Shown piece after piece: positions 1-58,833 of a stretch of DNA of 64,000 bases. The DNA comes from Thuidium tamariscinum (Eukaryota > Streptophyta > Bryopsida > Hypnales > Thuidiaceae), in contig OX344756.2 of the NCBI GenBank assembly GCA_947034885.2, forward strand, positions 15,310,098 through 15,374,097. The letters are read 5' to 3'. Numbering within the stretch: the first letter of the stretch is position 1; the number at the start of each line of letters is the position of its first letter. The notes under the pieces were generated by a model, which searched no databases, was not told the DNA's origin, and was given only the letters and a program-made list of their open reading frames with translations. A program made the translations under genes and the position numbers.

Positions 1-1030
1 GGAATACCTTCTTTGGTACAAAATTGTTAGAATCATTCTCTTTCCAAACAATTGCCTTTAAACAAAAGAATTAGGATTTTTTTTTTTTGCAAAATTGCAT
101 CCAATCAGTATGAAGTTTAAATTCAATTAATTAAAAAAAATAGCTTTAATATAAAGGAGCACCTTTCTAAAACTTTATAAAGGCAGCAAGTACTTTAATT
201 TTTTTTTAAATAAAATAAAATGAAAGACTTAATTATAATGAATTGTCTACTTTCAGAAGCAAAGGTACATATTCATCTTAAAAGAATATTAGTTTTATTA
301 GATATAATTAGATGATGTCATAGGTATTTCATGTGTAGGATTTATAAGGTCACCAACCCTTCTTCATTGAGCTAAGGGAATTGCAATGCAAGAACTATAT
401 ATGGCCCAATATTAGTACAACTAAACTTCAAATTATAAAAAAACAATTAGAGTATAAAAATTATCTAGATAGTTGGAAGACATCAAGAAGATCTAAGAAA
501 GAAGATAATTTTTTTCCCTTAATGAATAGTCATTGAATAAAGTTATTTTCAAAGAAAGATACGAAATGTAATTTGATCCCTTCTTTAAAACCAAAGTGAA
601 ATGTAGCCAACAAAAGCCTTTTAATCTTTAGAAGTGGCTGAATGCTCTAAACCGTAAACAACATCAAAGGTGTTCTATGGTCAAAGAATGAGAGTACATT
701 CTGCAGTGCAGGAGCAAACTACAGGCACTCATCCACAGAGATACAATTAAAAAATAAAGATCTTCTACAAATACTTGACTTCAAATGCGCACTTTTGAAT
801 TTCACATGTCCAATGATTCCCATGGTTGCATAAAAGATGGTTTTCTTCGTGACCCCATAATCGTTGAAGGGTTAAATGGTGATTTTTTGATAAACACTTT
901 CTAGGTTTAACCCTACACCCATTAAGGGGTACACACCAGTGATCCCAAAACTGGCTAAATTTCGCTCAATTGCTACATAATTTCTTCATGTCCTCACTGT
1001 AAATTCAGAAAAAATCTTCCCAAAATGAAC
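1..1030. other. AT-rich DNA without a recognisable gene
   Basis: No long open frame, RNA gene or clean repeat boundary is visible. The end of this stretch (about 895-1030) has short phrases such as CTAAATTTCGC that recur near 27,680, upstream of the hAT pseudogene, so it is probably part of a dispersed AT-rich repeat family. That is an inference from a few shared words, not an alignment. Confidence 0.5.
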
Positions 1031-2069
1031 ATTTGGCTAAAAACCTTGAACTTGTTTTGAGAACACCATCACATACGGCTATAGGTCTCGGGCACGGGTA
1101 CCAACTCTCCACTCCCGCGGTTATAGGGTCCCGCGAAGTTCTCCTTCAGTGGCCGCGAGGGTTTACCACGACATCGTCGTGGCTCCCATTTTCTCTGAAT
1201 TATGATTGCCGCTTGTGCGTGTTTGTGCTGCTTCGCGTGTTTGTGTTTTGTTCTCTTCTGTTTCACTTCTGTTAGTGAAGTTTGTGTTTCATCTTTTGAG
1301 GCGGAGGTGGGTGCGGCATTGCGTGAGTGCTGTGCACACAAATTTGCCGGCGCGCTGGTGTTTTTGATCTGGGCCTTTGCGCACATTTCTCCACTTTTGT
1401 CATTTCTCGAGTGTGGTTGGAGCGCTTGGTTGGAGCGCGTGGTTGGAGCGCACTTTCTGTCTTGTGAAGTGTCATCGTCTTCATTTGGTTCACGCTTCGT
1501 ACTGTTGAGCAAGCGACAGATCTTTGTGGGCGCTTTGCTTTTGAGGTAAACCCTAGCCCCTCCTTGCGTTCAATGCATTCTTTTCGTTTTTAATTTCTAA
1601 TTTGGGTAATGTTGCACCTTAGGGTTTAGGGTTTTAGGGATTCTGGAAGGACGATCATCAGACGGTCTTCTTCCAGAGATTACTGTGATACTGAAGTGCA
1701 CACTGTCTTTGATTCAGTTGTGGTATTGGTCTGTTGTTTTTTTGCTCTGTTGGCCTCCGTGAACTCCACGAGTGTGGTCACATTCTTCACACAGAAGTAC
1801 TCATAGTTGCAGTGTGTAATGCAGGCGCCAGAGAGCCTGAAGTTCAAGAGTGCCTTCCACATCAAACTCAAAACCAGATAACTCGTAAGCAGGAAATTGG
1901 CAGGTAAGCTCATTCCACTTCATTTTATTTCTAACTTCTCAGAACACACAAAAATGCACAGAAAAGCAACAGTAACACACTGGATTAGGGTTTAGTACCA
2001 GTGCAACTGCTGAATACGATTCAGCCTACAGAAAAAGTAGTTCAGGTCCCTCAGAACTTTGCTTATTGC
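1031..2069 (+). promoter_or_regulatory. GC-richer upstream region of the three-gene block, with teloboxes
   Basis: Base composition shifts abruptly to GC-richer sequence at about 1,070. Two telobox-type motifs are present: AAACCCTAG near 1,548 and the TTAGGG/TTTAGGG run near 1,619-1,638. Such motifs are common in promoters of plant translation and growth genes. Open frames here (for example 1069-1512 on the minus strand) overlap each other and look like chance. The stretch lies just upstream of the palindrome cluster and of the first large gene, so it may hold that gene's promoter and 5' leader. No TATA box or transcription start could be fixed. Confidence 0.3.
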
Positions 2070-2150
2070 ATGCTACTTTTATCTTTGCGTCGAAGATAAT
2101 TATCTTCGGGTCGAAGATATTTATCTTCGACGCAAAGATAAAAGTAGCAT
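2070..2150. repeat. Compound palindrome: three abutting 21-bp units inside a larger inverted repeat
   Basis: Three copies of the 21-bp palindromic unit sit head to tail at 2079-2099, 2100-2120 and 2121-2141. Units 1 and 3 are exact reverse complements of each other, including two private variants (TTTGC in place of TTCGA). The symmetry extends outwards (ATGCTACTT at 2070, AAGTAGCAT at 2142), giving perfect 29-bp arms (2070-2098 and 2122-2150) around the middle unit, which is itself nearly palindromic. This is the largest member of the palindrome family of this block and could fold into a strong hairpin. Confidence 0.9.
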
Positions 2151-2286
2151 TCCAGCTCCCCAAATGCAGCTCTAATAAACCTTATTCTTGATAACCTTGC
2201 CTAACATTAATCATAGCTCCCATGAGTATGACCAGTACACTCGAGAATTCCTCAGAACGGAAAACAACTAACCCTCCACCTTAAAG

Positions 2287-2307
2287 TTATCTTCGAATCG
2301 AAGATAA
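2287..2307. repeat. 21-bp palindrome, upstream copy (perfect)
   Basis: TTATCTTCGA, centre A, then the exact reverse complement. All ten pairs match. It lies about 450 bp upstream of the proposed start of the ParB-like gene. Confidence 0.9.
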
Positions 2308-2470
2308 CCACAAGTCAATAGACCGTTTTGCACTTAAGGCAAAGAATCTAAATCTCAGTTACCAAAAAGCAAACCTCGCTTACTAAAGCAAATTAATTAT
2401 AACGCCAACCAGATATTCCTACAAAGAATACAAGCACAAATATATAACACAACTTCCTTCTACTATAGAA

Positions 2471-2491
2471 TCATCTTCGGCTCGAAGATAA
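2471..2491. repeat. 21-bp palindrome, upstream copy
   Basis: Left arm TCATCTTCGG, right arm TCGAAGATAA. Eight of ten pairs are intact, with mismatches at pair 2 and pair 10. Confidence 0.8.
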
Positions 2492-2680
2492 TGTAACATT
2501 ACGATACAAATTCCGGAGACGTCTGTAGTTTCTAGAGCGTGTATGCTTTCAAGTATTTCCATTCAAGAACAGAAGTAAAGAAATATGAAACCATTCATGA
2601 CTGGAAAAAAGTAAAACGATAGATCATCTAAATTTCCTTCATTGTAGTGTAGCTCCTCATGATAAAGTGAGTAGAGAAAA

Positions 2681-2701
2681 TTATCCTCGAGTCGAAGATA
2701 A
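2681..2701. repeat. 21-bp palindrome just upstream of the first ATG
   Basis: Left arm TTATCCTCGA, right arm TCGAAGATAA, one mismatch at pair 6. It ends 56 bp before the proposed start codon at 2758, so it would lie in the 5' leader or core promoter. Confidence 0.85.
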
Positions 2702-4197
2702 GTTTCTATGAGTATTGATGATCATGAGCTTCTGGATTACCGTGCAGACTGTCCAAGATGGTGGGCAACGACGGGTACGACTACTCAGCTACTCTCCCCT
2801 TCCTTGAGCCATTCAACATGTGGATTGGTGATGGATCCTTCATCACAGAAATGGAAGACCTCTATGGAGAACTATAGCAGTTCAAGTCCGTAGTTGATTC
2901 TTGGACATTCGTAGTCAATAGATTTAAGGATTACGTCCACCTTCGCTACAAAGTGAAAGGTTCTGGTCTGTATGTGACCTGGAATCTCAATGAGAAAGTG
3001 TCTCTGATAGAGGAACATCAGAAACATTTCATTGTCGTCACACTCCAAGCCATCAACGACCATGGCGACGAGCTGAGCTACACGCACTCAATCGTCCTCT
3101 ATGATGAGGATGAAAGAGTAGTCTTCAACTTCGACGAGCTCATCAAGTCGCTGCAAGAAGGAAGCCACAACGCTCTGGGAGATGAGCTGAGCGGGAAATT
3201 CCACCCATGGGTACAAAATGACGCTGTGTCTATGGCGAGGCGCATAAACCTTCTATTCCGAAGACTAGAGAAGCATGCACTCTCAAGCGTTGAGAAACAA
3301 CCCACTTCCTCCCGTGCACAAACTAAGAAGAGGAAGGAGTCCCAACAACCAACTCAGACTCCATCAGCAGGACGAGGGACGTCAGGCAGTCGTGGTAGTG
3401 GAAGGGGACGAGGTCGTGCTGAACCTCAGAAGAGGAAACCCACAGCACCTGGACCCGGGGAGACGAGTGCAAAGCGCCCTAAACCAAGCGTGGCAGGGCG
3501 AGAAACAGCAGCTGGTAGCTCTGGTTCTGCTTTGACAACTGTACTGACGGGGAGTACTAAAGACGCTGAGCCCATCAAGAAGTTTGAGGTTGCAGGCATT
3601 TACCAGAAGAGTTTCTGGGAAAAATGTAAGGAATGCTTCATTTTTGAGCCGCAGACGTTCGAGGTCTCCATCGACCAATGCTTCCTTGCAAGGCCGAAAT
3701 ATGTGATCAGGAAGTTGGAGAAAACTATTGTTGACGATGTCCAGGAATAGCTGATTAATCTCGGGGACGCGAAACAGCGTCAAACGATTTGCCTCACACC
3801 AATGGATCAGAACAAAGCCCTTCTTAGAGAGTGTCCCAAAAGTTGGGACGAAATCAAGAATGGGAATTTTTATATCATCAATGGGCAACACGGTGTAACC
3901 GCGTCCAAGCAACTCCAATAAGGCGGGGTCTGTGAGGAACGAAAAAAGGAGCTGCAAACATGGGAAGCGACAATTGTGTGGACCTTGAACGCCGAAAAAC
4001 TCACGGAGATATCCAGTTGGTATAACAAGACAAACCATCTCCGGCATAGTCAGCCAACCTGGGGGAACCAGATCTTCTCTTGCAGACAAATCTGGGGAGC
4101 AGCAAAGCGACCAACTGCCATAGAATCCGAACCAGAGAAGCGAGGCAACAGATCCACTTTCAACGCAACTACGTACGCGGTAAGTCTGTTCATACTT

Positions 4198-4218
4198 TTA
4201 TCTTCGACTCAAAGATAA
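4198..4218. repeat. 21-bp palindrome in intron 1, first copy
   Basis: Left arm TTATCTTCGA, right arm TCAAAGATAA, one mismatch at pair 8. It starts 18 bp after the GT of the donor at 4180. Confidence 0.85.
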
Positions 4219-4267
4219 TACAAGTTGTTTTATCGTCCCTCTAGTATCGATAAATGTTTCTATATTT

Positions 4268-4288
4268 TCATCTTCGACTCGAGGATAG
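4268..4288. repeat. 21-bp palindrome in intron 1, second copy
   Basis: Left arm TCATCTTCGA, right arm TCGAGGATAG, three mismatched pairs. The surrounding text (TATxTTTCAT before the arm) resembles that of the copy at 4198, so the two may be an old local duplication within the 176-bp intron. Confidence 0.75.
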
Positions 4289-5705
4289 CATAAGTTTTTC
4301 TTCTCGTCTCACTAGTTAATGAGAAGCACTAAGACTGTTTTGGTAATTGCTCCAGAAATTCGTGGACGCTGTCCTGCTTCGATATCAGAGCATCAACCCG
4401 GATAAGGATGGCAGCAACGTCAAGAAGGAGTCTGACGTCAAGAACGAACTCCAAATCATTACACTTCCGGACAATATTTATAAGCTTTGGGAGGACTTCC
4501 TAAAGAAACAGATGGAGGGGTCATTGATTGACCCTTGCACGCGCAAACCTTATCGTAGCGCAAAGACATTTAGTCTTCAATCCCATGAAGTGAAGCGAGA
4601 GTTCTTTAAGCACATGGGGCATTTCACAGATAAAGATCTGCACGAATATGTCCTTCATTTGCTTGGACGAACTCCCGGGCGCAATCGAGAGTATCCAAAA
4701 GTCTCGATTAAGAAGACTAAGTTCCTTTGCGAAGATAACATGGTGCACTCGGATTGGGTAGAGCGGCGCAAGCGGAAGAAAGTGATTGTCGAGGAGTTCA
4801 TGGCTATTGACTCGTCCCTGAACTTCAAGGACAAGAACGGAGACGTGAAGGACTTGGTCTGGAGGGCTTGGAAAATCAAGAACCTCTTCACGGCGGCAAC
4901 GTGGGACTTTCTTCTAAACGGGATCCCAAGTAACTTCTTTGTAAAGCGCCTTACAAACGAAGGGAAGAAAAAGAAAGCTGTCGACTACAAAGACACTCCT
5001 CTCCGCACAGTCTATCCACTACTGAAAAGGTTCTTGAACATGAAGAAAGAGGTTGAGCAGTCGAATGGTGAAGCGTACATTCGAGGGCACGAGTGTTATC
5101 CCTAGGCTTTTGTGACGAGTCACACCTGGCCTTACCAGTTAAGAGGTCTTCCTCTGGGGATCATCGACTTCCAAAACCTTCCCAGGCCAGACGCTGGTTC
5201 CGGTAATCCTAGCCCATTGTTGCCTTTGTTGAGATTCCTCTCTAACCACATGAGGCCAACTTTGACGGGGCCAGAGGTCTGGCTATGGATTCCTGGGAAT
5301 TCATATGAGACAAAAGAAGCTACATCCTTTGCAGAGAGGCATCTCAAGAACTATGTGATAAGGCTCTCGACCTACATTCCATGTAAAGTCGAGAAAATAA
5401 GCAACGCTAGCCGAACTGCACCAGCCCCAGTGACTTTGATTTTCCTCATCTCGAAGGACGATGCTGGCGTGCCTAGAGAGCTCGGGACAGTGAAGAAAGT
5501 GTACGATACTACGGAAAACACTTTCTACACTGGTATTCGATTCAATACTGAGGCGAAGCTGAGGGTTTATCCGAGCAAACTACGGATGGAGTTCTACATC
5601 GACCTCCTCCAGAATCTCAGGTTGAAAGGAGAGAACGTCCTCAGCGTGTACACAGGATCCAAATTTCTCCTGGCTGCTAAGGTCTGCCATTCAACTTCTT
5701 TCTAT

Positions 5706-5726
5706 TTATCTTCGACTCGAAGATAA
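5706..5726. repeat. 21-bp palindrome in intron 2 (perfect)
   Basis: Left arm TTATCTTCGA, centre C, exact reverse-complement right arm. It begins 24 bp after the donor at 5682. If the intron were retained, the palindrome would supply the TAA that ends the frame. Confidence 0.9.
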
Positions 5727-6826
5727 TTCCTTTCATTGGATTTGAGATTGTCGTTGTATTCATAGTGCATCATTTTGATCAACCACATGTCAATGTATGT
5801 CATTCCTATTTTTGTAAAATTTCTACAATGTGTTATTCTATTTGCTCGGTTTTTCTAAATTAGAATCGTTCGCTTGCAGTTGTGTGGCATGTTCTGCTAT
5901 GCCGTAGAAGACCGGCACAAAAAGGAGATGCTCATGAAAGTTGTCAAGCATGGTGATCGAGCAGACATCAGCGACTTCCAGCATGATAATTCGCCGTACC
6001 AGGCGAATTATATCCGTCCCCTTCGGTTGGGTACACCAGAACTTGATTCTAACTCTTTCCCATCGGAAGCGCATCAGAAGAGTACACCAAGGGAAACCGA
6101 AGAGGCTGAAAATCGTCAACCACAGGGAAATTTAGGGGTTGACGAGTTTGGCACAAACAGAGACGTTGTACAGAGTGGAGATCTTCAGATATCGGTGGAG
6201 GATTTCCAGGTTCAGGTTCACCATGCTGCATCTATCGCAATCGCTGATGAAGTGTCAAATGCAGAAATGGAACAAGGCATGGAGGCAAAAAACACCGCCG
6301 ATGAGGAGGAAGAAAATGAGGAGCAGGAGAAAGAGGAGCCCCGAGAAGCTGAAAAGGATGAAAGAAGATCAAGGAAAGAAGTCATTGACCTGAGTGACGG
6401 CGACTCCTATTCAGACTTGGAGGGATTTGAATTTGGCGCAGATCTTGGTGACGCAGCGAAGTCAGATGCTGTGAGCAGAATGAAGCCCCTCAATGAATGC
6501 GATCCTCAGATTGAGAGCGAGGCAGGGTGTGCTCCAAGCGCGACTGCTACGGGAGTTGTAGTAGTGAAAAAGGAAAACCGAGACTTCTGGAAGGAACGGG
6601 ACGAACGGAAGGCCAAGAAGAAAGCAGAAGACGCTCAGAAGTTAGAGCAAGAAAGACTGGAGAGAGAAGCTCTTCTGGAGGAAAACCGAATTCTAAAGGA
6701 AAAGCTTTCTCAACAGGGAGCTCTTGCAATTCCGTTGGCATCACAACAGGTACATTATGATATCAACGAAGCCGGATGCTCATCTGATGCCTTTGAACAA
6801 CGGCCTTCAATTCTTGGCGATCCTAC

Positions 6827-6847
6827 TTATCTTCGAGGCGAAGATAA
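6827..6847. repeat. 21-bp palindrome inside coding exon 3, first copy
   Basis: Left arm TTATCTTCGA, right arm GCGAAGATAA, nine of ten pairs. It is read in frame as TYLRGEDN (residues about 1232-1239 of the ParB-like protein), so it adds codons without a stop. Confidence 0.9.
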
Positions 6848-6991
6848 TTCTCCCCTAATTCGAGAATGTGTTCGTCCATGTATGTCCGAATCGCAGGACC
6901 TCTTTCTACCTCTCCACGATCCTCAGCCTCATCTGACAACGAAGATGCAGCCTCCTACAATTGGAACGGACAATGTTATCAGAGGGATCGA

Positions 6992-7012
6992 TTATCCTCG
7001 AGTCGAGGATAA
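6992..7012. repeat. 21-bp palindrome inside coding exon 3, second copy (perfect, co-varied)
   Basis: Left arm TTATCCTCGA, right arm TCGAGGATAA. All ten pairs match although both members of pair 6 differ from the consensus, that is, a compensated change. It is read in frame as DYPRVEDN, in the same frame as the copy at 6827. Confidence 0.9.
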
Positions 7013-7268
7013 TCCCATGACTCAGATTGAGGATGAAGTAGACCCGGATGCGACCCCTGAATCTAAAGGAGGTGATCAGGTCCAAGAGGAGCCAGTCCCT
7101 CCATTGAGGTCATCGCCAGTTCCGACCTTCACGATTGAGTCACAGAATCCCCCTGACGACGATGATGAACAACTAGATTACGGGGAGGGCTATGAAGACG
7201 GCGACGAGCATCTGGCATTTGGACAGGTATCTTCTCCTCAAAAATCTGACCCCTATGAATTTTCTTGA

Positions 7269-7647
7269 GTCTGTCCAAAGTCTTTCCAATGGATGTTCAT
7301 TATGCCTTCCATCCCACTTTTGTCATTGTAGTAAGAGACTCTTATACCATTTCATCCTGTTGACAGGAGGGATTGGAGAGTCAGTGAGTAGGTGGCTTCG
7401 ACAGACCTCCCAACCTAAATCGTCCATTTGTAGCATAGATGAGATTTTAGACAAAAGAGTCTTGGTAGATGTATAGAACCAATGGAGATCAGCAAAAAAA
7501 TCTACCAAATGTATGATAAATTACTTGGAAATAAATAATCGTGTACGCATTTTATTTAAAATTGTGTATAATGGATTTTTTGTCTATGTTTTGTCCAGCA
7601 CAAAGGACTTAGAGTGCACCGTCCATTGGCACGCAAATTATCCTGTA
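7269..7647. other. Spacer between the ParB-like gene and the phosphatase-like gene
   Basis: Contains the proposed last short exon of the upstream gene (7367-7387) and otherwise AT-rich sequence. No independent gene is supported; the overlapping open frames here are short and unlike known families. No palindrome copy lies in it. Confidence 0.4.
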
Positions 7648-8603
7648 ATGGAGGGACTCTATGATCGCTTAGTGGGGGTCAGTGGGGTTCGGCGTTGTAT
7701 GAGTCACCTGGTTCTGCGTTTCAACAGGTAACGCCATCTCTCTCGTGTTTTTGATTTGATCAGGTAGTGACGGGGAGCCGTAGAGAGAGAGTGCTGCGGA
7801 GTGTATCCCTGATAGTTTCCAAACCGCGGAGGAATTGGTTGAACGTTGTATTCGACCTCAATGGAGTCCTCTGTCAGTGCGAGCGTAGGTCCTCTTTTAA
7901 GGGCAAGAACACGCATCGACCCGAGGACAATGTGTTCTCGGATCGGCAACCCACGCTCATTGGGTCGAAGGCGGTCTTCGTTCGTCCCAATGTGCGGAAA
8001 TTTCTTAGAGAGGTGAACCGGATCTCAAACCGCGTTGTTTTTTGGAGCTCTATGCTCAAGATGACAGTAGAGCCCGTCGTCGCCTTCTTGTGCCAAGACA
8101 ATAGACAACCCTATGACATTCTTGGGCAAGAGAACTACAAGAAAATTGAGATTTCTCCAGGAAATTTTCTTGTGCAGGGTGGGAACCCTTTTAAGCCTTT
8201 GCGTTTGAAAGTCCTGAACGAGCATTTGTTCACATGTCCGGACGATCCCGTTCACTTTAACATAGATAATACCATTCTGATTGATGACTCCCCGCAAAAG
8301 AGTGTTTTCAATGAGAACGGAAACGGGATTTTCTTGGATACGTGGGATCGTCATGAACGTGGAGACAAAGAGTTGATGGAAACTCTTGCGCCTTGGTTGA
8401 AGCGACTCCACGAGGACTGCCAGCCAGGACGCTTGCGTGAATATGTAGACTTGAACCGGATTGGTCAATCCCCTGTGACGCCTACCTCTTACAGGGTTCA
8501 TGAACTCTTGGACGGATTTAGGGAGTCGGCCAAAAACTTTGGGACTAGTTTTGTGCTCCCCGGAATGAATTTAGTGATCAAGCCCGAGCCATGTAGGAAA
8601 TAG
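7648..8603 (+). CDS. FCP1/NIF-type HAD phosphatase-like protein with a DxN active-site variant
   Basis: The main exon runs 7764-8603 (TAG). No in-frame ATG precedes the conserved domain, so an upstream exon is needed. I propose ATG at 7648, exon 7648-7677, intron 7678-7763 (ends in TTGATCAG), which keeps the frame and gives about 289 residues. The HAD core is clear: FDLNGVL (motif I), FVRPNVRKFLREV, FWSSML (motif II) and ILIDDSPQKS (motif IV). Active FCP/SCP phosphatases have DxDx(T/V); here the second Asp is Asn, so it is probably a weak or non-catalytic binder. NIF-domain proteins act on, or bind, phospho-Ser/Thr partners in the nucleus, but no substrate can be named here. Unlike its neighbours it has no internal stop. 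A telescoped motif (CGAAG near 7964 and CTTCG near 7974) is not a true copy of the palindrome. The first exon is uncertain. Confidence 0.6.
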
Positions 8604-8831
8604 GCATTGTTTTGCAAACTCTTGGTTGTAAATATCATTGTACATGATAAGAATGTGAACAAAACTGTAAATGTCATTCATTTATAATATATAAAGTTCT
8701 TATTTTTTATGTCAATGTGTGCCCCCATTGTTATGTGATATGATGTAAGACTCAATTGCGTAATTATCCTTGGGTCGAAGATAATGTGAGGGACTTTTTT
8801 GAAATCCTTTCTTCAGGTTGATGGATCTGTA
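8604..8831. other. Spacer after the phosphatase-like gene
   Basis: AT-rich 3' flank with possible polyadenylation-type sequence (TATAATATATAAAG near 8,682). It holds one palindrome copy at 8764-8784. An AG at 8815-8816 could be an acceptor for the next gene, but I found no donor that joins it in frame to the phosphatase-like gene. Confidence 0.4.
8764..8784. repeat. 21-bp palindrome between genes 2 and 3
   Basis: Left arm TTATCCTTGG, right arm TCGAAGATAA, seven of ten pairs. It lies 47 bp before the proposed ATG of the third gene, a position like that of the copy at 2681. Confidence 0.75.
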
Positions 8832-9746
8832 ATGCACCTGCTTCGACGAGCTCAGCCACTTACAAGGAGTTTGATGTCTGGATCAGATGCAACGCTCTCC
8901 AGGAGGTCTGAATCTGATGAAGGGAGTTGTGTCCCATCCGCCTTTTCGAAGCCAATCATATTGTACTTCGCCACGGATGCGGCTTCAGCGGCCATCGACT
9001 TTTCTAAGGGGAATATAGAAGAAGGTGTAGTGGACAGTCCGCCCAGTAGGGGTCTAGTCATGACTCCCGTGTGTTCACCATCCCCTTTCAAGTGGACGGC
9101 CTCCACACCTAGTCGGTTGCGATCGCAATCGCCGGTTGTTTGTACAGAGATGACTGTGCACAGGAAGTTGTATGTTGACATGGAAGGAGATTCTGAGGAT
9201 CCTCGACGCGAGGATGTAGTGTCGTTGGCTACTACACCTGATGTAGCTGTTGGCCTCAACAATGATCTCGGAGAGGATTCTATTGCAGGTGGACGAAAGA
9301 GGAAGGTTGCATTTGCTACATGTAGTGCAGGTGAACGTCTGTAGCTTGAAGGCATTGCCAAAACTTTGCCCTCGAAATGTCAAAGAGGTGAATCTGCATC
9401 TTCTCTTGTACCTCTTTCTCGTGGAACAGTTCTTGGAGACTATCATCGATCGAACGACGCATGGTCAACTGCAGCAGCAGATCCGTACATAAATATTGTC
9501 AATACATCATTGTCAAGGCCTCCAGCTCGAATTTCTAGGTCTCTTTCAAGCTACGAACTTTTGCGAAGCGAACGCAAGTGGCGAAAGGAGGCCGACGAAC
9601 TGTTGAAGATGGGGATGTGGGGTCCTGTGCATAGTGCAGCTAAACAACCAAGACCCTCTCGCCGCGAAGATATCTTTAGAGGCTTGGCTAAGCTCAAAGC
9701 TTTGGAGGCCGCAAACAGTAGCTCTTCAACTAAGAACAATGGTTAG
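8832..9746 (+). pseudogene. Unknown Ser/Arg-rich protein gene with one in-frame TAG
   Basis: A single frame from ATG 8832 to TAG 9744-9746 encodes about 304 residues, interrupted once by TAG at 9342 (codon 171). I do not recognise the family. Visible features: a Ser/Arg start (RSLMSGSDATLSRRSESDEG), an acidic stretch with a basic GGRKRK motif that could be a nuclear localisation signal, and a C-terminal charged helix (SERKWRKEADELL). A palindrome copy at 9197-9217 is read as DPRREDV, and a half-site at about 9661-9672 as RRED. The stretch around DVVSLATTPDVAVG...RKRK loosely resembles TVVSLVADPVDAVN...KRKR in the hAT protein at 28.9 kb, which may be chance. The reading resumes cleanly after the TAG, so decay is recent or the codon is read through. 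Confidence 0.45.
9197..9217. repeat. 21-bp palindrome inside the coding frame of gene 3
   Basis: The inner 17 bases (9199-9215) are ATCCTCGA, C, GCGAGGAT: both members of pair 6 changed together as in the copy at 6992, with only pair 10 mismatched. The outer two bases on each side have decayed. Read in frame as EDPRREDV. Confidence 0.75.
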
Positions 9747-10250
9747 TAGACAGAATTATGTCTGCTACCCCAAAGCATTCATTGCTATTAATAGAATAGA
9801 CATTCGTATACACAAAGGAATTCCATTTTTGCAAACTACATTTCTGAATGAGCACATAATCTCTACATTCATACACAATATACATCCATCAATCATTACA
9901 TTTACCATGATTTCACTTCCCCTAGAAGTGAAGTACATAAACATGTGAGATATATACTTTCATATGTACATGGGTTCTCTAGGAAGTTCATGCCATCCAA
10001 TGTAAAGTGACCTTCTATAAATGTTACATACATTTTGTTCTCTCAATTTCAATTCCGTTCTACAATCTTAATTTCTTTATTGTTGTTGTCTTCTGTCCTT
10101 CTAGGTAACTTGTAATTTATAATTGCTTTGTACACACAGGCTTCCCATATTTATCTTTGGCTTCAACAACTTATCTTTGAAACGAAGAGGCTTGAAGGTC
10201 TCAAAATGACCATTTTTTCTCAATTTAACGAATATGGCCTTCATAAACTG
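9747..10250. other. AT-rich 3' flank of the three-gene block
   Basis: No gene seen. TTATCTTTG near 10,170 followed by CGAAGAGG may be a worn relic of the palindrome. The block's right boundary is not visible as a terminal repeat. Confidence 0.4.
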
Positions 10251-28744: not shown

Positions 28745-31700
28745 ATGCCGAAGTTGAAGCTTCCTGAGAATTTCCGCATCCGCGCATTCGGTTCTAGTCG
28801 AAATGTGAACAGCATTGGCAAATATGTTTTGCCAAACTCCAGTACTCACGATGACTTGGCGATGGGCATGTCGGAGCTCGAAGTGACCCATGTTTCGGAG
28901 ACGCGCTTGTCGCAGTCTGTCTTCCGACCTTCACCTCGCGATCCGCCTTCCGAAGAGACCGTTGTGTCGCTAGTTGCCGATCCTGTCGATGCTGTCAATC
29001 TTCCCTGCAATGTGCTCAGCGATGATGATCGTTGTGTTAAACGGAAGAGGGAGAAGGGAGGTGCTGGAAACTTACAACGCAAGAGGGTGAAAATTTCACC
29101 AGGCACCATCAACAGACGATGGCAAGAAGTATGGGCGTGCAAGTTCGCTTGGGCGAAGGGGTAGTTTGATTCAAATGGAGATCTGTCTGGTGTCATTTGC
29201 TTGAGCTGTACATCGATCACAGGGAGGAAGAAGATTCTCGTCCCAAAGGCTGATAATCTGGAGAAACATAAGGGCAAACGAGTATATCGGGAAGATGGGT
29301 GCCCCTACCGCACCTTAAGAAAGGCGACTGTTTCATGAAGGATGACTGCAAGCACGTCAAAATGTGCAAACTCTGGGCCGCTCGGAAACAAGGTGGCAGC
29401 GTGGCTGATGAATTGTATGCACGTGTCAAGGGCGAGTTTAAGAGGAAGGAGGTTCAATTTTCTATACTCTTTCAAGTTCTCAGTCATGGTCGTCCTCTTT
29501 GTGATTATGAGAGAGAATAGTTTTTGCTTAGACACTTGAAGGTCAAAAACTTGCTTAGAAAGCATTGGTCCGAAAGTACTGGGTGGGAAATGAGTGAGCA
29601 TTTGTATGGTTGTGTTCTATCTGCCTTGAAGCATGTTGTGCAGTCTGCCAAGTTCCTCTCCATTTCTGTAGATGAAGTTTCTACTGTAGACAATACTAGT
29701 TGGATTTGTGTCCATGTGTATGCCGTTGAGAGTTGGGAGAGACTGCCGCATTTGCTGCATTTGTCCTGTTTGAGTGACGGTGGGACTGCGGACTAGCTCA
29801 CTACTGTTATCATGGCCGCATTGGTAGAGGAGGGAGGTCTGAACCATATGGAAATTGCTTCCAAACTTGTCTATTTTGGAGCCGATGGAGTTAGTACTTT
29901 CCAGGGCTCCAAAAACGGCGTCACAATACAAATCCGAGATAAATGGGCTCCCTTCTTATTGGGAGCTAGTTGTGTGAGCCATAGGATAAATTTGATTGTG
30001 GAGACTCTCTCCAAATATCCCATGGTCTCTAGACTTGAGGGGCTTTTCCAATCCATCTACTCATACTTCTGCTGCAGTAGCAAACGACATGTTGAGCTGC
30101 AAAAGCTCGCAAATCTCATGGAAACTAAGGGAGCAAAGATGCTTCGTAATGTAGAAACGCGCTAGATATCCATGAGGAGTCCAGCGCAGTAGATCTTGGT
30201 TGAGTACAGCACTCTGCTTCTAAAAATGGACATCGATATGACGCCTGGTCTTGGCCACAAGTCGGTCCCTGGGGCCGCCGATAACTTTGACTTGCTTGCT
30301 GACATCGAAGTGGTTCTGTCATTGGCTTTGTTCATTCCTCTGGTGAATGCAGTGTACTCTTTGATAAAGCTTTCTCAGGCCAGAGACATTTTCGTTTGCA
30401 ATTTCATGCAAGCGATTAAAGTGTGTCAAAGTGAGTTGGCAAGACTTTTCATCGATGGTGCTTTTGCCTTCAACAAGGCCAACTTTCTTGCTTACAATGA
30501 GATCATCTCTCTTCAAAGCAAACTAGTACCTCTGCAATGGAAGGAGATACCTGGCGATACGGGACTTGCACATCTATTGTTTGATTTGTCTATTACAAAG
30601 GTCTATGGCCACTGCCATGACAAACAAACTGGCCAACATATTTTCGTAACTCAAGAGGATTTCCACTGTCTATAGGACAATATTGAACGACACTTTGCAG
30701 GTGTGGTTTTCTTTTTACTTTCCCCATTTTTTTTTTGTCTTTGCTTCTTTATATAGTTTAGAATGTGATTAAAGTATGTAAATGTGTTCAAGTTGTTTTA
30801 ATGTGTTTATACTTTCCCCATTTTTTTCCTCTTTGCTTACTTATACAGTTTAGAATGTGATTAAAGTATTTGAATGTGTTTAAGTTGCTTTTATATGTTT
30901 ATCTTTTCCCCATTTTTTTTTGTATTTGTTCTTTACAATGTTTAGAATGTAATTAAGTGTTTAAATGTGTTTGAATGTGTATGAATGTGTTAACTTTTAA
31001 GTTTGAGAACGCTTTTGAACTACTTGAAGATGTCTTAATCTTTTTGGGCTTTTAAAGTGTTTTAACAATTCACTGTGCTGTGAGTTGTGTGTGCTTTTCA
31101 TTGTGCAGTCCCGTAGTGATGGATTAACAACGCCCTAAAGCAGATTTTGAGCTGTAAATGGATTGTTAGTTGAAATTTGAAATAGATAAGTTAGTCTATT
31201 TTGAAATGCTCTCATTTGGAAGTTCAAACTGTCTTGTAATTTAGTTGCGGAACTGTCTTGTAATTTACTTTGAATGAGGAACTGATTCTGGTTTTTGCGG
31301 CTTTGGGGCAGACATAGCTCACTCAGTGTGCACAGAGTTCGATCAACGTTTTCCGCAGCAGGACCTTCTGGATGCTTTTGGCATCATATACCCGCAGTAT
31401 TGGAGGCAGGATGGAGCCGAGGCGAGCTTCTCGCACCATTTGGGGATTCTTAAAAAGTTTTACTGTGAGGCCAGGCTCGTGAACAATGGCCATTCTTTCA
31501 CGGAAGACGGCCATCCTCTTACTGCCCCGGAAGTGTTGAGTGCTTCCAATCTCGACCTGCAGCAAGGTCTATTTAAAATCACAATAAAAGCCAACTGTGA
31601 GCTGGCTTGCGGCCCACCACTGGACGTGAACCCGATGATAAAGCGCTGGCGCCGACTTTCTCAATCACGGCATCTTTGTAAATTGATTTCAGAGTACTTT

Positions 31701-31931
31701 AAGGTCGCGGAGATTAGGTGTTGCCTGGTCCTCGGGTCTGTTGAAGACGAAAGGTGTTTTTCGAGTTTAAAGTTCTTGAAGTCATGCCATAGAAATAGGT
31801 TGGGGAAGCACCTTCCCCTTGTCGTGCGCATGTTCGGCCAAAAATATTTCACTCTTGAAGATTTCCCGTATAAAGAAGCGATTAATTCTTGGAGGGTTGC
31901 CTTGAAGGTCGGCAGGCAAGGGGACGTGTGA
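28745..31931 (+). pseudogene. hAT-superfamily (ZNF862-like) transposase pseudogene
   Basis: Exon 1 runs from ATG 28745 to 30700, exon 2 from 31312 to TGA 31929-31931; the 611-bp intron has GT-AG ends and joins HFAG to DIAHSVCTEF in frame. After a Lys/Arg-rich N-terminus there is a CxxC/His-type region (ICLSC..., KDDCKHVKMC), then the hAT core (ISVDEVSTVDNTSWICVHVY, FGADGVSTFQG, CVSHRINLIVETLS, and TR*ISM where hAT proteins have a TRW motif) and the C-terminal dimerisation region (LGSVEDERCFSSLKFLKS). In-frame TAG stops occur at 29162, 29518, 29794, 30163, 30190 and 30673, plus a one-base frameshift at about 29,315-29,325. Exon 2 is uninterrupted. Some plant relatives are domesticated or multi-copy, but this copy cannot be translated. 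Terminal inverted repeats were not found. Confidence 0.8.
30712..30995. repeat. Three imperfect ~100-bp units in the hAT intron
   Basis: Each unit has CTTTCCCCATTTTTTT, then TTTAGAATGTGATTAAAGTA and AAATGTGTT text. The last unit runs into short GAATGTGT repeats. Confidence 0.65.
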
Positions 31932-41100: not shown

Positions 41101-42080
41101 ACAACGTCGATACTCGTAAAATTGGCGCATTTCAAATTACCGAAATTGTGACGATCAAATGCCCAGAGCTTTAAAATCAGGAGTCTCAAGTGCCGCAAGC
41201 TCTACATATATATATGATGGTCATGGATTTTAGGTTTTAGTAGATCAATGTTAGGTTACAATCAAGCTAATAAACTTCACCAATTCACTAAAACTTGCGA
41301 TTCTCACAAACACGAGGATTGCAGCTCAGATCCAACACATAAAATCCGACACAAACATACCAGTTTCGACCTTTCACTCATGTCGATCACCAATTTTCAT
41401 AAATTTGCTTCAAATTTCACGTGTCGGATCCCAGATTACCGCACATTGGATCAACTGGACGTACCTTGATTGGATAATGACAAAGCAGGGGCAGCTCGTC
41501 GGTATCCCCAGTCTGCAAATACAACGCTCCATTCCCCAGACAGATATCCGTACTGAATACAAATTCCACACAACCAAATCACACCAAACATCAAATTCTT
41601 CATTAATTTTTTTTGAAATGCGCCAAAACTGAAAAACATGAAGTTGAAGATGAGCACTGACTTGGAATTTGAAGGCGACAAAACAGCCACCCAGTGACGG
41701 TCAGTAGGATTCTTAATCCCACTAACAGTCACAGTAACAGTCTGCACGTCCGCTAACGCTCCCGTGGCGTCCACTTGAATGCTCGCGTTCGGATACAGAG
41801 CCGAGCACGAGGCGAGTCTGCGTCGATTGAGCGTGCTGAAGAGATCGTTTCGCAAGGAGTGGTCACCTCCAATCATCCGACTCATATTCAAAGCCACGTC
41901 ATGCTCCATATGGGACTCCTTATTCACTAAAAAATCTTCCCGTAATTTCATTCGTTCTGGGACTTTCTGCCATCTCGCTGCTTGGCATGGTGGAGTGCTA
42001 GCGCATAGAATCGATATCACTACAGTTGTGAAGAGCAGACGATGAAGCTTGAATGTCCTGCAGTCCGTCGTCATCGTCAT
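35125..42080 (-). CDS. Purple acid phosphatase, PAP2/PAP9-like (last exon not found)
   Basis: Twelve minus-strand exons join in frame: 41662-42080, 41465-41552, 40230-40496, 39367-39472, 39128-39239, 38740-38872, 38260-38438, 37520-37706, 37004-37071, 36516-36621, 35344-35535, 35125-35205; 1,938 nt, 646 codons, all GT-AG. A hydrophobic N-terminal segment (LLFTTVVISILCAS) suggests a signal peptide. Then a Fn3-like PAP N-domain (LPLLCHYPIK, TCSGSVSFRLINIRTDVKF) and the metallophosphatase core with its metal-binding motifs: GDMGKAERD, NGDISYA, GNHER, GHRPMY and GHVHNYER. GGECGVPYETYFPMPT and STEHNW match the plant PAP2/PAP9 group, which hydrolyses phosphate esters using an Fe-metal centre. That group ends in a further exon, in some members with a tail anchor. 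I see no exon after LNHLNIQ, so the 3' end is missing or lies beyond recognition. No internal stop. Confidence 0.88.
35644..35745. repeat. PAP intron repeat, copy 1
   Basis: TGCCATTTTTTCATTCATTTC...CTAAAGTCTAGGACTAGTATA matches 37,349-37,420 in the same orientation; both lie in introns of the PAP gene, about 1.7 kb apart. Confidence 0.6.
37345..37425. repeat. PAP intron repeat, copy 2
   Basis: Partner of 35,644-35,745: the phrase TCTAAAGTCTAGGACTAGTA is identical in both. Confidence 0.6.
39915..40140. repeat. Tandem ~57-bp units in PAP intron 3
   Basis: About four or five drifting units containing (GG)ACTTTGCRAACTTGC followed by TGATTGATY or TTGATCGAT, for example at 39,930, 39,958, 40,003, 40,047 and 40,120. 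Confidence 0.6.
40566..41100. repeat. Three ~175-bp units in PAP intron 2
   Basis: Each unit contains GGGATCCGTCGTC or a variant, AGCTCC...TTGxCxxxAGCCAG, AAxCTAAT, GTTATTxGxATTGTATC and GAATCCATCCTT. Units start near 40,566, 40,746 and 40,923 and are clearly diverged. Confidence 0.65.
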
Positions 42081-56638: not shown

Positions 56639-58833
56639 ATGGGTGTGTTTCCAGATGTGTTCCATCTAGGAAATATACTTCGGATGGGTGTGCTGTGGGT
56701 TTTGTGTCTCATTTACTCCCACCTCTCTTATCTCATTCTTCGTCTACGATTTCCACATAGAATGCAAGGGATCAATGTCTTTGATGGTTTTGAGCTTCGT
56801 TCTTCTTCGCATTCCAAGCCTGCGTGTATCGTCACAGGGGTATGAGCTCAAACCCTGTGTACACAATTCTTTTCAGTTCCCAAGTGCGCTCTCGATCTGA
56901 AGTGTAATGAATCTGATTTAGTCAGGGTAATTTGCGTGGTTACGAGAATTTGTCACAATCTTTCCTGGGGTTTAGGGTTTAGGTAGACGAAATTATTAAG
57001 CATTGTAGTCAATTGGTAGGAGTATGCTTGCATGGACGATTCCATTGGATAGATCACTTCGGGTACAAGAGCCGAACTCTGTTGAGATCAAAGTGTTTTG
57101 TCACTTAATGTATTGGATGATTTTGTATGCAACCTTTTAAAGTGGGAGGTTCTAGATCACTATTGAAGGGACAGTAGAGAACTCCATTTCCATTCCGAGA
57201 TCAGTAGTCTTAGACATTGAGCGAAGTCATGCTCACAGCTAACTTGCTAATTGAAGCAACTAAGTGTGCGAATAGATGAGTTGCTGTTGGTGATTGGAGA
57301 CAATTTGAGAGACTAAGGTTTTCTTGTCCTGTTCCTTATTTTGTACATTAATTTGTACATTAATGCTGATACAGAAGGTGTGCAATTGTGCTAGAAGGCT
57401 TCTTCTGGAATCGGCCGGGCAACGGCTTCAGCACTTGCACTGCGGGGTTTCCATGTGATTTTGGCTGGTCGGTCACTTGAGCGTCTGGAGGTTGTCCGTG
57501 GTGAAATTGAGGCAGGGAGTTCCAGTTCCTCCTGTCAGGCTTTGGAATTGGAGTTGTGTTCCGTGCCATCAATCTTGCGCTTTGTGCAAATTGTGAAAGA
57601 GCTTTTTGAGGCACAAGATGCACCTGGCACCTTACAACTTCTTGTGAACAATGCAGGTACATTGGGTTCCTTCTATTGCGAGGTTCTCTCTTGTTTTTGT
57701 TTATTTAATCATTTTTCATTGTGTTGATCAGTTGAAGGGTGTGCTAAACAAGAACGGCAGGTAGAGAACGTTCTGGTAACCAGAGATGATGTAATCAATG
57801 GTTGGACGCTAACTGAGGTTTTTGTGCTTAATTCTCAGTCCAATCTTTTGAAAGATATCTTGTTGAAGCTACTGAAAATGCGCATCTAATGAGCTCTAAT
57901 ATGCCTCCTAACTTGACAGCCCGAGATAATGGCAGCCTACAGAGAGCCAACAGAGATTCTTTAATCATTGTGGATCAATTCATGCGAGTATTAGCTTGTT
58001 GGAAGACTCTGAACAATGTGCTTCTATCAAGCCATTACTGGTGTCCTGATTCTCAGTATTCAGATAACCGCAATTGAGTGAACCGAGTGAAATTTGAGTA
58101 CATACCTGCCAGACTAACATACCTGCCCATCGATTTATTGTGATGCGTATCATCAATTCTGAGGCTGTCATTGAATATGCGTCTTGTGGCATTGTTTGAA
58201 GCAGGAATCTTGGCAGCGTCACAAAGGTGGACTGAAGATGGTTTCGACGCCATGACGGCAAGCAATTACCTGGGACCCTACATTCTAACTCACGAGCTCC
58301 TCCCGTTGCTTCAAAAGAATGCACCCCAAGCTCGAATCGTGAATTTGGTCTCCTTCACACACCGTGCTTCACATCGTAATCAAATCGATCTGACTCACCT
58401 CCTTAGTGGTGGTATACGGCTGAATAGGGATATGTATCCCCTAGCCAAAATTTACGAGACTTCCAAGTTGTTCATGATCCTTTATTCTTATGAATTACAC
58501 CAACAGAATCTCAACCGTGTTTCAGTCATGGCTGCCGATCCTGGAGCTGTGAGCACCAACATTCTGAGGGAGCTGCCCTCTGGGCTTGCTCACTTGAGCA
58601 GCATTGTGTTGAGGCTACTTGGTTTGTTGCAGTCTCCATCAGCTGGTGCGAAAGCAGTGGTGGCTGCCGCATTGGCACCTTGGGAAGTCTCAGGCAAGTA
58701 TGTTTTTGGCAACCACGGCTACTTCTGCAAATCTTCCGCCATTACCTACGATGCACAGTTGGGGCGTCGGCTCTGGGAAGCCTCTGAATCTCTCTGCAGT
58801 CACGTCATTGACAAGCATAAAAAGCGGGATTAG
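56639..58833 (+). CDS. Short-chain dehydrogenase/reductase, DHRSX/FEY-like
   Basis: Three exons: 56639-56839, 57398-57656 and 58205-58833, 362 residues. Exon 1 has a hydrophobic helix (MGVLWVLCLIYSHLSYLI), probably a membrane anchor, and ends in CIVTG. Exon 2 supplies ASSGIG, completing the TGxxxGIG nucleotide-binding motif, and NNAG. Exon 3 holds the YETSK catalytic Tyr-Lys, the PGAVSTN segment and a C-terminus (GKYVFGNHGYFCKSSAITYD...LWEAS) like that of DHRSX/FEY-type plant proteins, which are membrane-linked NAD(P)-dependent dehydrogenases; substrate not known from sequence. The acceptor of exon 2 is a TAGAAG tandem: the second AG gives the standard motif, the first adds one Lys. A telobox lies upstream (TTAGGGTTTAGGG near 56,510). 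All key residues are present, no stops; likely functional. Confidence 0.85.

Follow-up and report, generated by a model that had tools for sequence, protein, structure and literature searches.

A palindrome that marks a 17-kb DNA transposon family in the moss Thuidium tamariscinum is a candidate self-recognition site

The subject of this study is a 21-bp palindrome that recurs 13 times in a 64,000-nucleotide stretch of the Thuidium tamariscinum genome (contig OX344756.2, here C8; C8:15310098-15374097 of a 363-Mb assembly; below, "the window" is this whole stretch), where it lies within a block of three genes that we call A, B, and C. The block makes up the right part of a DNA transposon of 17,237 bp (C8:15303102-15320338) that ends at window position 10241, and the palindromes mark this element family. 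Our best overall explanation, to which we give a probability of roughly 0.6, is that they are self-recognition sites of the transposon: Each would consist of two inverted half-sites (TATCnTCG-NNN-CGAnGATA in this genome and TTCAGCTCGA-N-TCGAGCTGAA in distant relatives) and would be placed before the element's two transcription units, within introns, and, less often, within exons. A protein encoded by the element, most likely the gene A product, would bind these sites as a dimer and act only on its own element family or subfamily, with the outcome that genes A to C and a further gene, D, are kept expressible, be it through freedom from silencing or through expression control, in a manner resembling VANC proteins.

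The 13 copies had been described in an earlier sequence-only reading of the window, and direct inspection of the 64 kb found all of them (13/13) with the sequences given there. Searching the window for the 21-mer with up to 3 mismatches yielded 12 matches where 0.02 were expected (0/100 shuffles), while the inner form ATCNTCGNNNCGANGAT, allowing at most 1 mismatch, yielded exactly 13 where 0.06 were expected and none in the rest of the window. The copies are distributed as follows:

2079..2141: three palindromes in 21-bp tandem (2079, 2100, 2121), upstream of gene A, within an 81-bp inverted repeat (2070-2150)
2287..2307: palindrome 5' of gene A, complementary at all ten pairs
2471..2491: palindrome 5' of gene A
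2681..2701: palindrome shortly before the start of gene A
4198..4218: palindrome in gene A intron 1, 18 bases past the first base of the intron
4268..4288: palindrome in gene A intron 1, within 52 bp that are a diverged duplicate of the stretch around palindrome 4198
5706..5726: palindrome in gene A intron 2, 24 bases after the first intron base, all ten pairs complementary
6827..6847: palindrome in gene A exon 3, translated YLRGEDN
6992..7012: palindrome in gene A exon 3, translated YPRVEDN, all ten pairs complementary, pair 6 C-G
8764..8784: palindrome between genes B and C
9197..9217: palindrome in gene C, translated DPRREDV, the weakest copy (pair 6 C-G; pairs 1, 2, and 10 non-complementary)

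The three exonic copies share a single reading frame relative to the palindrome, and in each of 5 copies compared the inner 19 bp of palindrome 2681 begin 73 to 76 bp 5' of the gene A start codon. Ten of the 13 are noncoding, though about 77% of the block is coding according to our own exon models, on which all coding fractions of sites given here depend. The sequence-only reading had the palindromes confined to the three-gene block, which holds for the window and fails beyond it: Five more copies lie 2.7 to 3.5 kb to the left of the window start, and the genome holds 2304 places at up to 3 mismatches, compared with 36 for a reversed control.

The element that hosts the block extends beyond the window and thus beyond what that reading could see. 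Homology between copies stops on both sides at terminal inverted repeats (TIRs), with the 24-bp AAGGCCATATTCGTTAAATTGAGA standing inverted at both ends with 0 to 1 mismatch in 6 copies, and perfect 4-bp target-site duplications flank all 6 (CATA, ATAT, CTAG, ACCC, AAGA, and CATC). Across the genome, the TIR occurs 472 times at up to 2 mismatches (control: 0), with single-letter differences among the TIRs listed. The element therefore has both the terminal inverted repeats and the target duplication of fixed length of a cut-and-paste TIR transposon:

1..10241, plus strand: right part of the transposon, its left 6,996 bp lying off the window; ends from copy comparison and TIR search
10218..10241, minus strand: right TIR, 24 bp (AAGGCCATATTCGTTAAATTGAGA on the minus strand), the same 24 bp standing at the left end (C8:15303102-15303125)
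10242..10245: target-site duplication CATA, matching the CATA that precedes the left end

Genome-wide, the 21-mer is frequent, but its placement is not random. Of 50 exact sites listed, 37 have a listed match to gene A exon 2 no more than 17 kb away, in a zone that makes up 0.87% of the genome, and the clustering near paralogues of the block genes that the sequence-only reading had thought worth looking for is thus borne out. In 16 element copies, whose stretches were picked from listed palindrome places or listed exon-2 matches, we counted 211 sites of the form TATCNTCGNNNCGANGATA at up to 2 mismatches. No such site was found in six 10-kb stretches placed at arbitrary round numbers or in window positions 10242-64000, an absence that carries little weight, because at 2304 sites per 363 Mb about 0.7 would be expected in these 114 kb; the clustering near gene A is the stronger evidence. 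A scan for palindromes free of any motif, which also yielded unrelated palindromes, recovered family members, located 5' of gene A or within its introns, in 8/8 additional subfamily copies. The sites stand upstream of genes, in introns 18 to 25 bases past the donor, and seldom in exons.

This distribution differs from that of the palindromic elements of Rickettsia, which also occur within reading frames and with which the sequence-only reading had drawn an analogy. The sites here are 19 to 23 bp long and mostly belong to one transposon family instead of being dispersed through unrelated genes, and they avoid coding DNA (3/13 coding in the window, 0/8 in each of two distant relatives introduced below), so that the analogy is not supported.

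Another way to read dispersed palindromes is as tiny mobile or duplicating elements that multiplied by chance in the transposon. The 21-bp tandem triplets and the diverged 52-bp duplicate do indicate local copying, and 13 of the 50 exact sites listed are not near a listed gene A match. We nevertheless consider this explanation very improbable given that diverged copies have the sites arranged alike before gene A, in unchanged order and at similar places, and that their arm class tracks the gene A tree. In the 900 bases before gene A, 76% to 82% of site columns are kept in three diverged copies compared with 47% to 59% of the other columns, and the sites stand there in similar order; in the closest copy, which has one 21-bp unit fewer, the values are 0.82 for site columns and 0.99 for others (5 of 6 copies were compared, the sixth being dropped because its start was not found by pattern). 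The sites are thus a conserved feature of the family and are kept while nearby upstream DNA diverges.

Relatives beyond this subfamily reveal that the sites keep their places and change their arms, which take the forms TATC(t/c/a/g)TCGA, TTAGCTCGA, and TTCAGCTCGA. A protein search with gene A exon 2 returned 45 homologues, some of whose ends extend beyond the exon borders, presumably into introns, and there encode the palindrome: We counted 15 core palindromes (TCGANTCGA with symmetric arms and at most 1 unpaired position) in 14/45 proteins within 766 residues beyond the borders, while 200 shuffles gave a mean of 0.585 and a maximum of 4, and the exon itself held 8 matches in 18,032 residues. 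DNA relatives were found on two contigs filed under a Synechococcales cyanobacterium metagenome-assembled genome, L001 (CADCWO010000243.1) and L002 (CADCWO010000269.1), which carry introns and, judged from their sequences, appear to be eukaryotic contamination of that assembly. Their gene A is 29% (L001) and 27% (L002) identical to that of the window, and L001 also has gene B in common with it (36%). Each contains eight copies of another palindrome, TTCAGCTCGANTCGAGCTGAA, with 0.00 expected, which over the two contigs occur 5' of gene A, within both introns, and in intergenic DNA. The window form is absent from both contigs at up to 6 mismatches, and their form is absent from the window at up to 5.

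How far the symmetry itself is kept depends on the level of comparison. Within the 13 window copies, to which the claim of the sequence-only reading referred, changes on both sides of a pair occur in 3 cells compared with 1.8 on shuffling, a number that 116/500 shuffles reach, and the matching pair-6 changes in palindromes 6992 and 9197, offered as an argument for symmetry, are not significant alone. Across the two families (29 copies, 24 distinct), 43 cells are changed on both sides compared with 20.0 when shuffled, and the covariation score is 0.460 compared with 0.186, neither of which is reached in 500 shuffles; the number of pairs changed on both sides (5, shuffled 5.3) and of further pair types (10, shuffled 10.1) shows no excess over shuffles. 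The signal reflects change between the two families. Arm class follows the gene A tree: Two changes suffice to explain the classes TATC, (T/C)AGC, and TTAAG in the 17 rows, out of 48, that bear labels, several of the labels being read from peptides (P0040 and P0056 are uncertain, and P0059 was omitted from alignment A2). The rows labelled TATCg fall into one 9-row clade that also includes one TATCt row.

These arms bear directly on an interpretation of the AGATAA half-sites, called GATA-factor-like in the sequence-only reading, as binding sites of host GATA-type transcription factors, which would then drive the transposon genes. TATC/GATA (pairs 3 to 5) is indeed kept at 206 to 208 of the 211 sites, although the search pattern itself required these letters with at most 2 mismatches, having fixed all letters save pair 6, pair 10, and the centre, so that constancy is partly built in. 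The consensus of such factors, WGATAR, demands A or T before GATA; G or C stands there in 73 of 211 right arms, and WGATAR was not found at each half-site across the family. Relatives retain TCGANTCGA but with TTCAGC, TTAGC, or TTAAG arms, the sites of L001 and L002 lack GATA, and the near-invariant letters of the 29 copies (T7, C8, G9, C13, G14, A15, and A20) fall outside the GATA part except for A20. As a general account of the palindromes, GATA factors are therefore rather improbable.

The letters at pair 6 bear on whether DNA is recognized or RNA folds. Six copies that are 84% to 100% identical to the window copy mostly have T-A at this pair, while the others have C-G (two copies), A-T (two copies), or a mixed or unpaired state. 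Pair 6 is complementary at 132 of 211 sites compared with 73.2 (largest value 97) when shuffled across copies; shuffling within copies gives 124.7, and 176/2000 shuffles reach the observed value. The pair-6 letter is thus set by copy lineage without clear site-by-site pairing, which favours a dimer that reads two half-sites over an RNA stem. Hairpins in transposon transcripts near splice donors that steer splicing or feed small-RNA production would account for the position of the first intronic sites, which begin 18 to 25 bases past the donor in all six introns compared (the two gene A introns in each of the window copy, L001, and L002), and some copies do fold well. However, G-U-preserving mismatches in the window palindromes are roughly equal in number to A-C mismatches (8 and 6, with 6 others; in L001 and L002, 0 and 1, with 6 others), pair 6 is often non-pairing (AG, CT, CC, and AC) in several copies and not clearly complementary above within-copy shuffles, and clusters also stand upstream of genes D and A. 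We regard the hairpin explanation as unlikely; DNA rather than RNA appears to be the active form, and that the palindromes are self-recognition sites at the DNA level is, in our judgment, quite likely.

Recognition by the transposase for transposition itself would be another DNA-level role, comparable to the subterminal repeats that CACTA elements carry, and short motifs dispersed within a TIR element and common to its copies would suit it. In the window copy, though, about 3.5 kb separate the left end from its nearest palindrome and about 1 kb the right end from its own, clusters stand before genes and within introns, and the TIRs vary by single letters while pair 6 of the palindrome varies between subfamilies, all of which makes this role quite improbable. 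We infer that the transposase is gene D, which lies off the window on the minus strand and encodes DUF7869 (E 3e-47), a domain without known function; considered for the DDE/D catalytic triad of such enzymes, its sequence gave no match among PDB sequences. Its frame is cut once in the window copy and forms a single open frame of 954 residues in another. Five palindromes precede gene D in the window copy, five or six do so in each of four other copies (L007, L010, L014, and L019), and two more (L012 and L017) have six at the matching place, where the start of D was not located.

Binding of the sites by a protein of the element is probable. We give gene A an even chance of encoding this protein. 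Our model of gene A (2758-7268) has three exons and two introns, the introns containing three palindromes:

2758..4179, plus strand: gene A exon 1, with in-frame TAG 2875, TAG 3748, and TAA 3919
4180..4355, plus strand: gene A intron 1, GTAAGT donor and CAG acceptor, at the same place in L001 and L002
4356..5681, plus strand: gene A exon 2, with TAG 5103 in this copy; basis of the homologue set, predicted models, and fold searches
5682..5879, plus strand: gene A intron 2, homologues reading on beyond the same donor
5880..7268, plus strand: gene A exon 3, which by inspection completes the methyltransferase fold and continues as a low-complexity tail

In the protein part encoded by exon 2, an N-terminal helical domain, which includes the nearly invariant basic stretch WVERRKRKK, is followed at residues 235-442 by a predicted beta-class DNA methyltransferase fold that fold searches likened to CcrM, M.RsrI, M.BceJIV, and bdelloid N4CMT. 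The catalytic motif of active beta-class enzymes is DPPY or SPPY. Gene A shares the fold and differs in this motif and in motif I: D271 is present in 46/46 rows, followed by L or F in 37/46 and R in 38/46, with no PPY, so that most rows read D-(L/F)-R-x-x-P at the DPPY place and (F/Y)xGxK at motif I. Methyltransferase activity, as far as these residues tell, is doubtful. The palindrome core TCGANTCGA (window 2079-9217) includes GANTC, the CcrM site, and the gene A fold resembles that of CcrM, which may be no more than a coincidence. As in ParB/parS systems, inverted-repeat sites lie near the gene of their putative binder, and a GQHxVxASK motif in exon 1 is reminiscent of ParB/Srx proteins; sequence searches of Pfam and PDB, made without a structure model of exon 1, gave no match to a ParB nuclease/CTPase domain. 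Exon 3 found no homologue in the protein search. Genome-wide, 96 exon-2 matches of 41% to 100% identity were listed, with 95 of 461 candidates scored. Contig C11 (17.5 Mb, 4.8% of the genome) holds 30 of these 96 best-scored matches and is possibly a non-recombining chromosome.

The closest known parallel is the VANDAL/VANC system of Arabidopsis, a well-described plant case in which motifs of a DNA transposon are read by its own anti-silencing protein. Short motifs in the noncoding DNA of VANDAL elements are reported to be bound by VANC proteins, which remove methylation (PMC5735166, PMC10398659), and loss and gain of tandem units is also known for these motifs (PMC5735166). Both systems have element-specific short motifs in introns and in intergenic and terminal noncoding DNA, tandem copy-number changes, and motifs that differ among related families in step with an element protein; the motif here is likewise enriched in noncoding DNA of the element and diverges with element lineage. 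Unlike VANC motifs, it is an inverted repeat that also occurs in exons, in a TIR element with a 4-bp duplication, a DUF7869 gene, and a candidate binder with a methyltransferase fold. Pfam scans of pieces of genes A to C and D listed neither a Mutator transposase nor VANC, for which coverage by Pfam is not established. We hypothesize that the element works like VANC with unrelated parts, a likeness that makes no claim to membership; that it counters silencing rather than exerting plain transcriptional control is suggested by this analogy and somewhat less than an even bet.

More tentatively still, this may be the independently evolved self-recognition system of a new superfamily, in which a repurposed, non-catalytic methyltransferase fold reads a palindromic address placed in promoters, introns, and exons of the element and shields no subfamily but its own from silencing, with address and reader changing together and several addresses present at once in the same genome. 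If true, a further such system, built from unrelated parts and with many coexisting subfamilies in one genome, would suggest that self-addressing arises repeatedly; it would also provide natural pairs of reader and address for studying the joint evolution of DNA-binding specificity and sites, and hint at a use for a methyltransferase fold that lacks its catalytic motif.

Kolobok and piggyBac elements share TIRs and 4-bp target duplications with this transposon, and its termini start with two purines as those of Kolobok do; judged by the TTAA target described for both (PMC9587614), the element belongs to neither, with six other tetramers and no TTAA in the 6 copies.

The remaining genes of the block are:

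7767..8603, plus strand: gene B, NLI-interacting-factor-like (FCP1-type) phosphatase domain (PF03031, E 1.1e-15)
8817..9743, plus strand: gene C, function not assigned, TAG 9342 within the modelled frame (our own exon model)

Gene B has 32 homologues in a protein search. Active phosphatases of this kind carry DxDx(T/V); gene B and those inspected relatives that include this part read DLNGVL or DLNGIL there (window 7840-7880), so it may be a catalytically altered phosphatase. Thirteen chosen gene B relatives (among P0013-P0031) stand on long contigs with a median of 82% mutual identity and clusters of up to 146 members, which suggests a high-copy family in some other genome. Gene C matches no Pfam family. 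The window copy is damaged, four of the five in-frame stops in genes A to C being TAG (2875, 3748, 5103, and 9342, the fifth being TAA 3919); CAG-to-TAG decay at methylated CHG sites might give such an outcome. Elsewhere in the window, the open reading frames at 31326-31931, 41451-42080, and 58171-58833 may resemble a hAT transposase end, a purple acid phosphatase, and a short-chain dehydrogenase, respectively.

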